DNA from: Cyanobacteriota bacterium
Lineage (GTDB): Bacteria > Cyanobacteriota > Vampirovibrionia > Gastranaerophilales > UBA9971
Assembly: GCA_022703625.1 (NCBI GenBank)
Contig: JAKLDH010000009.1
Span: 1-43,939 of the forward strand
DNA: 43,939 bases
Direction: 5' to 3'
Positions 9,854-36,648 of this stretch are shown piece after piece. A program made the position numbers and the translations under genes. The notes beneath the pieces are model-generated. The model worked only from the letters and a program-made list of their open reading frames with translations. It was not told where the DNA came from and ran no database searches. The stretch's first letter is position 1; the number at the start of each line of letters is the position of its first letter.

Positions 9854-11713
9854 TTAGTTTTCCTCCTTAATTGCGTCAAACGGGCAGGATGTTAAACATG
9901 CGCCGCATTTAATGCATTTTTCCTGGTCAATAACGAATGTTTCTTTTATTTTGCCGCTTATCGCTGAAACCGGACAAACTTTAGAGCATTTTGTACAGCC
10001 TTTGCAAAGAGCCGGATCAATTTTAATTGTCTTGAATGCCTCACATACTCCTGCCGGACATCTTTTGTCCACAATATGCGCTAAATACTCGTCTTTAAAG
10101 TATTTTAAAGTTGACAACACCGGATTAGGAGCAGTTTTGCCCAATCCGCATAATGAACCAAGCTGTACAACTTCCGCAAGTTCTTCAAGTAATTTAAGGT
10201 CTTTAAGTTCAGCCTTGCCTGCCACGATTTTTTCAAGGATATGAAGCATTTGCTTTGTTCCTTCACGGCAGGGAATACATTTTCCGCAGGATTCGCTTTG
10301 TGTAAACTCCAGAAAGAACCTTGCAACTTCAACAATGCAGGTGTCTTCGTTCATAACAACCAAGCCTCCTGAACCTACCATTGCTCCTACGCTTTTTAAA
10401 GACTCATAGTCAAGTGCAAGATCAAGATGTTGTTCTGTTAAACAACCGCCTGAAGGACCTCCGATTTGAACTGCTTTGAATTTCTTGTTATTTCGGATTC
10501 CACCGCCTATGTCATAAACGATTTCTTTTAAAGTTGTGCCTAAAGGTACTTCAATAAGTCCTGAATTGTTGATTTCTCCTGTTATTGAAAAGGTTTTTGT
10601 ACCAGGACTGCCTCCTGTACCGTATTTTTTATATTGTTCCGCATTGTTTAATATTATCATTGTTATATTTGCGTATGTTTCTACGTTGTTTATAAGTGTT
10701 GGCTTTCCAAACAAACCTTCATTTGCGGGGAAAGGAGGTTTTGGCATCGGCATTCCTCTATCGCCTTCTATGGAGGCTATTAGTGCGGTTTCTTCACCAC
10801 AAACAAAAGCTCCTGCCCCTTCTTTAATTTTAATTCTGAACGAAAAATCCGTCCCGAAAATATTATCGCCTAAAAAGCCTCTTTCTTCCGCTTGTTGAAT
10901 GGCGATTTTTAATCTTTTTACAGCCAGCGGATATTCAGCTCTGACGTAAATATATCCTAAGCTTGACTCTACAGCATAAGCCGCTATTATCATACCTTCA
11001 ATTAATCTGTGAGGATCGCCTTCCATAAGTCCGCAATCCATAAATGCGCCTGGATCGCCTTCATCAGCATTACAAATAACGTATTTTTGATCGGCTTTGT
11101 TCATTCTCACAAAGTTCCATTTTTTGCCTGTAGGGAAGCCTCCGCCCCCTCTTCCTCTTAAGCCGCTCTGTTCAACTTCATTACAGACCTGTTCAGGGGT
11201 AAATTCTTTAATAACTTTATCAATCGCTTCATAACCTCTTGCGGCTATGTATTCATCAATGTTTTCCGGATTAATTTGTCCGCAATTAAAAAGAGCTTTT
11301 TTGGTCTGGTATTTATAAAAGTCAATTTCCTGTGGATTTTGTATTGTTTTATTGGTTTTTGGATCAACAAAAAGAAGTCTGTCAATCACTTCAGCGTTTT
11401 TAAGAGTTTTTTCTATTATTTCTGCTACATCTTCAGGCTTTACTCTTACATAAGTAAGTTTTAAATCAGGAATTGCAACAAAAACGCCCTGTTCGCAAAA
11501 GCCATGACAGCCTGTTTTTATTGCTGTTACATGTTTTTCGCCTTTTAATTTTACGTCAGCTCCTAATTGAAGGAATTTATCGTAAATATCCAATGCTCCA
11601 TTAGCCACACATCCAGTCCCTGAGCATATTAGCACTCTTGCTCCGGTCTTTTTGACATATTCTGAAGCTCTTTCAAATTCTTTTTTTATATCCGCCTTTA
11701 CTGTATTAGTCAT
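9854..11713 (-). CDS. hydB: [FeFe]-hydrogenase NADH-binding flavoprotein subunit HydB (NuoF-like)
   Basis: A 619-residue NuoF-like subunit that carries FMN and the NAD(H) site. Order: N-terminal thioredoxin-like [2Fe-2S] domain (C30, C35, C69, C73); FMN/NADH loop GLRGRGGGGFPTGKKW (184-199); GAFVCGEETALIASIEG; SLBB region near IGGPSGGC; the N3-type [4Fe-4S] site SCGKCIPCREG with a fourth Cys at LCGLG (522); and a C-terminal two-[4Fe-4S] ferredoxin domain (CKGCTKCSKVCP, CIKCGACLTSCP). The ATG at 11713, with AAGGAGAT just ahead, overlaps hydC by 8 bases and is preferred over an in-frame start 42 bases upstream. This domain set matches bifurcating HydABC enzymes. Confidence 0.95.
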   Translation of the reverse strand: MTNTVKADIKKEFERASEYVKKTGARVLICSGTGCVANGALDIYDKFLQLGADVKLKGEKHVTAIKTGCHGFCEQGVFVAIPDLKLTYVRVKPEDVAEIIEKTLKNAEVIDRLLFVDPKTNKTIQNPQEIDFYKYQTKKALFNCGQINPENIDEYIAARGYEAIDKVIKEFTPEQVCNEVEQSGLRGRGGGGFPTGKKWNFVRMNKADQKYVICNADEGDPGAFMDCGLMEGDPHRLIEGMIIAAYAVESSLGYIYVRAEYPLAVKRLKIAIQQAEERGFLGDNIFGTDFSFRIKIKEGAGAFVCGEETALIASIEGDRGMPMPKPPFPANEGLFGKPTLINNVETYANITMIILNNAEQYKKYGTGGSPGTKTFSITGEINNSGLIEVPLGTTLKEIVYDIGGGIRNNKKFKAVQIGGPSGGCLTEQHLDLALDYESLKSVGAMVGSGGLVVMNEDTCIVEVARFFLEFTQSESCGKCIPCREGTKQMLHILEKIVAGKAELKDLKLLEELAEVVQLGSLCGLGKTAPNPVLSTLKYFKDEYLAHIVDKRCPAGVCEAFKTIKIDPALCKGCTKCSKVCPVSAISGKIKETFVIDQEKCIKCGACLTSCPFDAIKEEN

Positions 11714-17037: not shown

Positions 17038-17394
17038 TTAGCCCTGTTCTTTATTTTTCAAGATGTTATCCAATAAATTTATCTTGTTTTTCGCTAAAGA
17101 AATCTCTTTTTCTATTTCTTTTCTGCTCTTTAACGCCTGTCGCAGCTGATCTGCTATCGAAAACAGATAAAGACCTGCTTCACTAACGCATTTAGAGATT
17201 ATATTCTGCTCATGTTCATCAGGCAGTAAGTTTATCCTCTCGCCTGATATCTTATAAAGCTTCTCAATAAGTATTGAAAGCTGTTCTTTTTTACATTCCA
17301 GGTTTATACAGCGCGAAGCAATCTTTTTCTTTTCCCGAATTGCTTCGTCTTCGCTAAGATTCAAAATTTTCTTGTCCATATTCTGCATGCTCAA
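17038..17394 (-). CDS. Hypothetical small coiled-coil protein
   Basis: A 118-residue charged, helix-rich protein without a signal peptide. Heptad-like patterns lie at about residues 15-50 (KKKIASRCINLECKKEQLS) and 85-118 (LKSRKEIEKEISLAKNKIN). I do not recognise the family. The start is TTG at 17394 with AGGAGGAG about 9-11 bases ahead; the ATG at 17388 is an alternative. It is first in a three-gene reverse operon with the isochorismatase-fold and flavoprotein genes. Its closeness to the flagellar operon is suggestive (many export chaperones are small helical proteins), but nothing in the sequence proves that link. Confidence 0.6.
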   Translation of the reverse strand: MSMQNMDKKILNLSEDEAIREKKKIASRCINLECKKEQLSILIEKLYKISGERINLLPDEHEQNIISKCVSEAGLYLFSIADQLRQALKSRKEIEKEISLAKNKINLLDNILKNKEQG

Positions 17395-17884: not shown

Positions 17885-18000
17885 AGCAGTATTGAAAAAA
17901 TATATATTTAGTTAAAACTCTTTATATGATTGAAAAAATGGCGCTTAATATTTTTTAATAATATTTTTTTTAATTAATTTTTTATAAAGACAGGCAATTG

Positions 18001-18030
18001 TTGAGTAAAAAATTTTTTTATAAATATATA
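18001..18030 (+). promoter_or_regulatory. Possible promoter of the small RNA
   Basis: TTGAGT (18001-18006) and TATATA (18025-18030) with an 18-base spacer would start transcription near 18037, shortly before the first AAAGGAGGT. The match is moderate in a very AT-rich background. Confidence 0.3.
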
Positions 18031-18036
18031 CAAATT

Positions 18037-18211
18037 CAAAAAATTCTCAAAAAGGAGGTACAATTTTAATTTTATAGCATTATGTTATCATTTTAAACTT
18101 AATAAAGGAGGTTTTCAATTTTAAACTGTTAAATATTATTATATTTAGTTTAAAAAAGGAGGTTTCAAAAAAAGATATTAATCAAAAAAGAGGGATTATC
18201 CCTCTTTTTTT
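18037..18211 (+). ncRNA. Candidate small RNA with three AAAGGAGGT motifs
   Basis: Three copies of AAAGGAGGT at 18051, 18104 and 18155 are 53 and 51 bases apart, separated by AT-rich segments that share CAATTTTAA-like tracts. TTTTAAACT and AGTTTAAAA (around 18119-18154) can pair between copies 2 and 3, leaving the GGAGG motifs in linkers. None of the three is followed by a start codon opening a real frame. The segment ends in a textbook intrinsic terminator although no protein gene lies upstream for over 600 bases, so a non-coding transcript is the simplest reading. Its 5' end is only estimated. It might bind CsrA-type proteins (GGA motifs) or the 16S 3' end. Confidence 0.45.
18184..18211 (+). 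terminator. Intrinsic terminator of the candidate small RNA
   Basis: AAAAAAGAGGG, loop ATTAT, CCCTCTTTTTTT: a strong stem directly followed by a run of T. The A run on the left would let it act in reverse too. Confidence 0.85.
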
Positions 18212-34665: not shown

Positions 34666-36069
34666 CTATTCGGCATGGAGTTTATACCCCAATGCCAATA
34701 CTGCTTCGGGCGAAGTTAGCTCGTTAAACCTATCTTCAGTTATATATCCATTTTTTATCAAATAATTTTTTATATTTAAATCTGAATGTTCAATTTCTTT
34801 AATTATTTTAGAAATTTTATTATAGCCAAGCTCCGGCAAAAGAGCGGTTAATGTGGCATAACTGGATTCTACCTGCTGCTTTAACGCTTTTTTATTAGGC
34901 TTTATCCCGTCAATACAATATTCTCTAAGAGTTTTATTTGTATTTATTAATAGCTCAAGGGATTCCAGAAAAGAAAATGCCAATAAAGGTATATTATGAT
35001 TAAGTTCAAACTGTCCTCCGGCTACGCATTGATCTATTATTAAGTCATTTCCGAGAACTTTTATGCCTACCTGCGCCGATAGCTCAGGAATTACAGGATT
35101 AATTTTCCCGGGCATAATTGATGAACCCACCTGAACAGCAGGAAGGATTATTTCTGCCAGACCCGCTTTAGGTCCTGAGTTCATTAATCTTAGATCATTT
35201 GAAATTTTTATAAGATTTGTTGCGTGAGCTTTTAATATACCGCTAACTTCACTGAACACATCAAGGTTTTGAGTGTTTTCAACCAGATTTTCCGCTCTGG
35301 AAAGACCAATTCCCGTTAAGTCCTGAAGCTTGTCAATTACGCTGAAAATAAATTTTTTAGGAGCAGACAAACCTGTTCCAATAGCAGTCCCGCCAATATT
35401 CACTACTCTAAGACGTTCTTCACACTTGTAAATTCTCCACCGATCTCTGGATATTGCTTCTGCATAAGCTGAAAATTCTTTTCCCAGCGTTATTAATACC
35501 GCATCCATAAGCTGTGTTCTGCCAACTTTTACTATATCGGCAAATTCTTTTTCTTTTTCCTGAAAACTCTCCTGAAGAGCTGTTACTTCTTTTTCAAGTT
35601 TTCTTAAAAGAAATATTGACGCGGTTTTTAATGCTGTTGGATATACGTCATTTGTTGACTGAAAAAGGTTTATCTCTTCTATTGGGTCGATAAATTTATA
35701 TTCGCCTTTGTTTTTGCCATAAATTTCAAGCGCTCTGTTAGCGATAACTTCGTTAACATTCATGTTGAGAGAAGTTCCCGCGCCTCCCTGAAAGGGATCA
35801 ACGATTATTTCTTCGTTAAATTTGCCTTCTGAAAACTCTTCACAAGCTTTTATAATGGCATTTGCTTTTTCCTTTTCCCAAATCGCAAGATCCTTTATCG
35901 AAAGCGAGCAGGCAAGCTTTAAAAGCCCGAATGCTTTTATAAATTCCTGATTTATTTTATATCCTGAAATATTAAAATTTTTTTTTGCCCGATAGGTGTG
36001 AATACCCCAGTAAGCGTTTTTTGGAATTTCAACTTCGCCAAGAAAATCCGTTTCTTTTCTGTAAGACAT
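34666..36069 (-). CDS. aspA: Aspartate ammonia-lyase (aspartase)
   Basis: A 467-residue member of the fumarase/aspartase superfamily. The signature GSSIMPGKINP (315-325) contains the mobile catalytic loop Ser. AGTSLNMNVNEVIANRA (97-113), STNDVYPTA (138-146) and GRTQLMDA (183-190) line the active site. The NMNVNEVIANRA block and the length favour aspartase over fumarase C, though these are not separable with certainty by eye. It would convert L-aspartate to fumarate and ammonia, which fits an anaerobe using fumarate or amino acids. The start ATG has AAGGGAA just upstream. It is a single-gene unit. Confidence 0.87.
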   Translation of the reverse strand: MSYRKETDFLGEVEIPKNAYWGIHTYRAKKNFNISGYKINQEFIKAFGLLKLACSLSIKDLAIWEKEKANAIIKACEEFSEGKFNEEIIVDPFQGGAGTSLNMNVNEVIANRALEIYGKNKGEYKFIDPIEEINLFQSTNDVYPTALKTASIFLLRKLEKEVTALQESFQEKEKEFADIVKVGRTQLMDAVLITLGKEFSAYAEAISRDRWRIYKCEERLRVVNIGGTAIGTGLSAPKKFIFSVIDKLQDLTGIGLSRAENLVENTQNLDVFSEVSGILKAHATNLIKISNDLRLMNSGPKAGLAEIILPAVQVGSSIMPGKINPVIPELSAQVGIKVLGNDLIIDQCVAGGQFELNHNIPLLAFSFLESLELLINTNKTLREYCIDGIKPNKKALKQQVESSYATLTALLPELGYNKISKIIKEIEHSDLNIKNYLIKNGYITEDRFNELTSPEAVLALGYKLHAE

Positions 36070-36143
36070 TTTTTATTCCCTTAATTTTATAAGTATCAAT
36101 CTGAATTAATTATAGCAATCATTTAAAGAAATCGATAAATTTA

Positions 36144-36193
36144 AAAGGAGGTTACTGTAAAGTCTTAAATTGCGGGCGCTTCTAAAAACTCAA
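36144..36193. repeat. AAAGGAGGT plus short dispersed repeat, copy B
   Basis: AAAGGAGGT (36144-36152) with no gene start after it is followed by TGTAAAGTCTTAA, the same sequence that precedes the palindrome at 43718, and by GGGCGCTTCTAAAAACTCAA (36174-36193), a one-mismatch copy of 6996-7015. Confidence 0.5.
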
Positions 36194-36288
36194 AAAATTC
36201 AATTAAGCAATTTTTTAAACAAGATTGTTTTTATAATAATACAAATATATGGGATTAGAGAAAAATATTAGGAAAAGGGGATTTAAAG

Positions 36289-36648
36289 ATGTCAGAATTT
36301 TGTAATGTTAGCAACATGAAAACAGGTATGGAAACTTACAAAAACATACCTAATGCAATTAATGGAACTATCAGAAATGAAGTTGCTTTAGCAAGAGCAA
36401 CCGGTGAATGTGAAGCGCCAACAAGAGAATTAGCTTCCGAAAACGCAAAAAATCAAAGCGTCTTCAGTCAAACTACTGATGGCAGGCTTAAGTTTACAGA
36501 TCATGCAACCAGTCAAAGACAATGCGATATTTTAGCGGACAAATACGGTTATATGGATCCACAGGTTGATTCAAACGGCGCATGTACAGTTAAAGAACCT
36601 TCTTTAACTGATAAAGCCATAAATTTTGTATCAGGTTTATTTAATTAA
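36289..36648 (+). CDS. Hypothetical small protein
   Basis: A 119-residue protein that I do not recognise. It has no signal peptide or membrane segment; it is rich in Asn, Thr, Ala and Glu, has four cysteines (FCNVS, GECEAP, QRQCDI, NGACTV), and ends in a short amphipathic helix (LTDKAINFVSGLFN). A good AAAAGGGG ribosome binding site precedes the ATG, and a strong hairpin follows it, so it looks like a genuine, independently expressed gene. Codon use and base composition resemble its neighbours. Confidence 0.65.
   Translation: MSEFCNVSNMKTGMETYKNIPNAINGTIRNEVALARATGECEAPTRELASENAKNQSVFSQTTDGRLKFTDHATSQRQCDILADKYGYMDPQVDSNGACTVKEPSLTDKAINFVSGLFN

Follow-up and report, generated by a model that had tools for sequence, protein, structure and literature searches.

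A candidate CsrA-titrating small RNA gene in a FliW-encoding, Melainabacteria-type lineage

The CsrA-titrating RNAs CsrB/CsrC and RsmX/Y/Z are known mainly from Gammaproteobacteria. They are free-standing, terminated and untranslated RNAs with repeated RGGANG sites, their bodies are poorly conserved while their promoters are conserved and carry an upstream box, and their hosts encode a CsrA with the RNA-contacting residues L4 and R44. Their GGA motifs sit in hairpin loops or unpaired stretches, and a BarA-UvrY-type two-component system activates their transcription. In the FliW-CsrA flagellin homeostasis switch of Bacillus and Campylobacter, fliW lies directly upstream of csrA, CsrA carries a C-terminal extension and residue N55, and no small RNA antagonist is known in the described cases. 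In FliW bacteria, CsrA also binds flaA/hag mRNA leaders, which contain SD-type GGA sites. One review describes RNA decoys and FliW as mutually exclusive modes of CsrA antagonism, and another states that whether the two act together is still undetermined. In the open-access papers that we searched, we found nothing on CsrA in Melainabacteria.

Here, we describe a locus that probably encodes a CsrB/RsmX-like CsrA-titrating RNA in a FliW lineage, where both its transcription and its binding of CsrA are what we infer. The locus lies in the window, the whole 43,939-nt stretch of Gastranaerophilales DNA that was analyzed. Like CsrB/CsrC and RsmX/Y/Z, the predicted RNA would be free-standing, terminated and untranslated with repeated RGGANG sites, and it shares with them a poorly conserved body behind a conserved promoter with an upstream box, as well as a host CsrA that has L4 and R44. 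Unlike them, the RNA and its homologues have a predicted length of ~99-214 nt, contain two to three GGA clusters, are very AU-rich and match no Rfam family; they occur in a Melainabacteria-type lineage whose host encodes FliW too, and their upstream box, CTTAAYATTTYTTWA, is not obviously a UvrY/GacA site. The host resembles the FliW-CsrA switch in the position of fliW, the C-terminal extension of CsrA and N55, and departs from it in having a candidate small RNA antagonist. The SD-type GGA sites recall the flaA/hag leaders, but the predicted RNA ends in a terminator, is tied to no single downstream gene and is not an mRNA leader.

The predicted small RNA is ~175 nt long and occupies positions 18037..18211 of the + strand, with its start inferred from the promoter (~7 nt past the -10) and its end from the terminator. 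Three GGA motifs, all identical to AAAGGAGGT, lie on the + strand at 18051..18059, 18104..18112 and 18155..18163, with spacings of 53 and 51 nt between successive copies. The predicted RNA has its first GGA at nt 18, and over all homologues this position ranges from nt 9 to nt 18. An intrinsic terminator, written AAAAAAGAGGGATTATCCCTCTTTTTTT / AAAAAAGAGGGAUUAUCCCUCUUUUUUU, follows on the same strand at 18184..18211. Both the three identical 9-mers and the textbook terminator at 18184 reported in a first-pass annotation of this DNA are therefore borne out. No start codon lies 6-16 nt past any of the three motifs, and tandem short reading frames were ruled out because there are no usable start codons. 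The relatives were also checked for short reading frames, and none follows the motifs there, in agreement with the annotation's statement that no reading frame comes after them. With a promoter, a terminator and no reading frame, the sequence supports the terminated non-coding transcript that the annotation had proposed, transcription itself being predicted.

The region folds better than its dinucleotide shuffles (z = -2.97). The annotation had further suggested that the spacers form hairpins, which is unsupported as a conserved feature, since the predicted folds outside the terminator differ among homologues. The predicted unpaired probability of GGA ranges from 0.02 to 0.98 among homologues, and placement of GGA in hairpin loops is not a consistent prediction; in the window copy, the three sites are predicted to be mostly paired, which counts against a CsrA-titrating role, though the RNA is AU-rich and its fold weak. 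A search of Rfam with the RNA returned no match at the gathering score, families of CsrB/RsmX type gave none at E values up to 10, and a known Rfam family was rejected as its identity for this reason. Because of this lack of a match, the RNA is best described as probably working like CsrB/RsmX rather than filed as a member by descent, and its origin is likely independent of that family.

Across the 2.5-Mb genome (G000), AAAGGAGGT occurs 25 times, compared with 30 occurrences of a reversed control pattern, and a closely spaced pair of copies (pattern search, gap 30-50) is unique to this locus genome-wide. The rarity of the 9-mer and the unique close spacing of its copies indicate that the cluster is neither a product of chance nor a sign of generally strong ribosome-binding sites in this genome. 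The copy at 36144, which the annotation had called a lone fourth, does lie in non-coding DNA, but the window total is five rather than four, the extra copy being at 10731 within a coding region. The 36144 copy is part of a dispersed intergenic repeat (window 36069-36289) unrelated to the RNA gene. At least 11 further loci of the genome match this repeat over stretches of 20-95 nt with 75-95% identity, and at least one of them shares AAAGGAGGTnnnnGTAAAGTCTTAA; as part of this repeat, it was rejected as a second RNA gene. No second copy of the RNA was found in its own genome, where other matches to the promoter model described below score at most 18.4 bits.

Alignments place an upstream box, CTTAATATTTTTTAA, at 17944..17958 (+ strand; single match in the window) and a promoter consisting of GCAATTGTTGAGT (-35 region) and TTTTTTTATAAATATATA (-10 region) at 17994..18030 (+ strand). 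In the homologues, CTTAAYATTTYTTWA (the family consensus of the box) is followed by CAATTGTTKARTAA, which a T-rich stretch separates from a TATATA-like -10. The box is present in 8/8 homologues, ~36-40 bp ahead of the promoter element, and the CAATTGTTKARTAA element is invariant in the alignment of all eight. With two CTTAA-like half-sites 10 bp apart, the box is a candidate activator site, and its conservation suggests that transcription of the RNA gene is regulated. The promoter class CAATTNTTNA-N9..14-TTTTTATA (also written GCAATTNTTNA-N9..14-TTTTTATA) is expected 0.01 times in the window and was found twice, here at 17995-18022 and again at 36208-36235 before a 119-aa ORF. It also stands ahead of genes elsewhere in the order, several of them short ORFs without assigned function (L022, L186, L188, L196, L199, L207). 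This recurrence before other genes supports a real promoter, and a single sigma factor or regulator may recognize the class.

Boxes of the form CTTAATATTTCTTAA(C/T)AT, or close variants, were also seen in DNA of the order's largest family, f2 (L145, L146 and L147, in G258, G380 and G090), and their shape resembles OmpR/PhoB-type half-site repeats. As the sampled f2 genomes are without csrA, the regulator of the box probably has other targets. In another family, the promoter class on the reverse strand is followed by apparent short non-coding terminated transcripts, one with a single GGAG (L193 in G023) and one without GGA (L190/L191 in G015/G020). These candidates have no Rfam match, and they are possibly distant relatives or other RNA genes.

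Homologues of the RNA gene were found in 8/10 genomes of the family, covering four genera, and each has the box, the promoter element and the terminator, the stem sequences of which vary between genera. A first blast of the region against 60 relatives gave mainly AT-rich noise. The exception was G006:C306, a clear relative from another genus, which has two AAAGGAGG and a terminator; as in the window, it is placed upstream of the 118-aa ORF and the isochorismatase gene and in divergent orientation to both. The remaining six homologues beyond the window (G001, G004, G005, G007, G008 and G009) were located via the synteny of the G006 copy and the promoter. A two-element promoter pattern searched over 383 genomes of the order recovered all eight copies and four unrelated extras (G090, G210, G258 and G380), which were rejected as homologues because no GGA-rich terminated body follows. 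With a promoter model, the eight homologues reach 61-86 bits, and no other site in 30 genomes exceeds 30.5 bits; the weaker matches are mostly ordinary same-class promoters before genes, such as that in G003, which precedes a 193-aa ORF. A stricter pattern applied to 84,980 species genomes, a set that may leave out records of the window's own genome, matched only within this group (Candidatus Gastranaerophilales, Candidatus Caenarcanum, Melainabacteria GWA2_34_9 and UBA9971). Directly past the RNA terminator in G006 lies a ~60-bp dispersed repeat (L081 2000-2060) with some 40 matches in that genome, which is also present in G001 and G003.

The RNA bodies of the eight homologues diverge too far to align well, and what they share is an excess of GGA. 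Over 1022 nt of RNA body, GGA occurs 27 times and TCC once, a value reached in 0/20,000 shuffles. With the window copy left out, as it had been chosen for its motifs, the counts are 24 and 1, with 1/20,000 shuffles as high. GGA density per strand is 2.64 per 100 nt in the RNA bodies. The intergenic DNA of these genomes has 0.86 and shows no strand bias. Two short cores stand out, AAAGGA with 14 occurrences (1.2 expected) and GGANG with 15 (1.9 expected). The full SD-like 9-mer is not conserved, and the relatives show AAAGGACGG (G004, G005), AAAGGAAGG (G007, G009), GGGGGGAG together with AUAGGAA (G008), and CGGAGGA in its place. The E. coli CsrB repeat is CAGGA(U/A/C)G, the loop bound by RsmE is ANGGAN, and E. 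coli CsrB contains 22 GGA sequences (PMC7652899), so that the two to three clusters seen here are few by comparison, a point against the titrating role. The AAAGGA/GGANG pattern appears to fit the CsrB repeat and the RsmE loop better than an anti-SD function. With promoter, GGA motifs and terminator kept in all eight homologues, the GGA-repeat logic by which the first-pass annotation had invoked CsrA titration is supported.

The same features could be read as those of an sRNA that base-pairs with C-rich mRNA or sRNA targets via its G-rich motifs, independent of CsrA. The gene is conserved, terminated and non-coding with repeated purine-rich stretches, and some regulatory RNAs do pair through such stretches. 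However, the motif flanks vary between genera and a short core in an A/G context alone persists, which fits a protein-recognized motif better than a pairing seed, and we consider this explanation unlikely. Slightly less likely again is a ribosome decoy, in which 30S subunits would be held or tuned through pairing of their 16S rRNA, at its anti-Shine-Dalgarno end, with the SD-like motifs. In its favor, each of the three motifs of the window matches the 16S 3' end by perfect complementarity over 9 nt, the genome contains AAAGGAGGTGATCC, the complement of that end (L041, one of the 25 genomic AAAGGAGGT sites), and GGAGG is found somewhere in 7/8 homologues. Yet AGGAGG is missing from 4/8 homologues, and the motif nearest the promoter reads GGAAGG or GGACGG in four genomes from two genera, with GGGGGGAG in G008, changes that weaken SD pairing and keep GGA. 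We know of no natural RNA that is established as a ribosome decoy of this kind. The pairing with 16S 3' ends that the annotation had offered as a second function is thus weakened, as the 9-mer is broken in several relatives (GGACGG, GGAAGG, GGGGGGAG, AUAGGAA) while GGA stays.

The genes around the locus bear on a further explanation, that the RNA regulates, as a leader or attenuator, the flagellar operon to which the annotation had linked it. The locus does share its strand with the SLT-flgF operon, lies ~200 nt ahead of it and ends in a terminator. However, this operon is found downstream in the window genome only, and the homologues precede argG (G006, G001) or are faced by nadA (G004, G007), trpA (G008), a sensor kinase gene (G005) or a partly masked nadA-like ORF (G009). 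No AGGAGG cluster was found upstream of the SLT gene in other genomes of the family. On the basis of these changing neighbors and missing clusters, the leader or attenuator was rejected as very improbable, the special link to the flagellar operon is unsupported, and the operon is best seen as a bystander. What is kept lies on the other side, in a conserved divergent operon encoding a 118-aa protein without a Pfam match (17038..17394, - strand; beside the RNA gene in 8/8 genomes), an isochorismatase-family protein (PF00857; 16371..17024, - strand; synteny kept in 7/8) and a pyridine nucleotide-disulphide oxidoreductase. As judged from this arrangement, the RNA gene is free-standing and not a flagellar leader. 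Equally improbable is remnant DNA or a chance cluster with no functional RNA: AT-rich DNA does yield spurious promoters, but two promoter elements, the terminator and a strand-specific GGA excess are conserved over four genera.

CsrA titration requires a CsrA, and the check for csrA that the annotation had proposed was positive. The genome encodes one CsrA gene (PF02599, 1.4e-23), directly downstream of fliW (PF02623, 1.1e-35). The 103-aa protein has a C-terminal extension, keeps the RNA-contacting L4 and R44, and contains N55, the FliW-contact residue of CsrA (PMC13407953). Of the 17 CsrA genes found in relatives, every one encodes L4, R44 and N55, and 16/17 have a FliW motif upstream. Among the RNA-bearing genomes, csrA was found in 7/8, and was not found in G008, which is 89% complete. 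Neither csrA nor the RNA was found in G002, and csrA-bearing G003 yielded no RNA. Outside the family, the sampled f2 genomes are without csrA and without the RNA, and families f3, f4, f6 and f7 have csrA and no clear RNA homologue that we could find. This distribution indicates that, within the order, the RNA is not an obligatory companion of CsrA, yet it fits a CsrA partner within the family. In total, promoter elements, GGA motifs and terminator are kept over four genera in an RNA gene that reads as non-coding, and CsrA and FliW are both encoded.

For the CsrA-titrating RNA, we propose that positions 17940-18211 form a small RNA gene whose three-motif product would bind CsrA dimers through its RGGANG sites, and that the RNA-bound CsrA would be kept from reaching the Shine-Dalgarno regions of its mRNA targets. 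The RNA would act alongside the FliW encoded upstream of csrA, giving two CsrA antagonists, and an activator, the existence and identity of which we infer, would act at the upstream box. Somewhat less firmly than for the titrating role itself, we favor the view that in this Cyanobacteria-related lineage an RNA decoy and FliW converge on one CsrA, and that decoys arose outside Gammaproteobacteria, probably independently. If true, antagonist modes that have been described as mutually exclusive would coexist, and the locus supplies a concrete pair, an N55-bearing CsrA and an RNA with GGA repeats, for an in vitro test of this coexistence. CsrA-decoy RNAs would then extend to a distant bacterial lineage.
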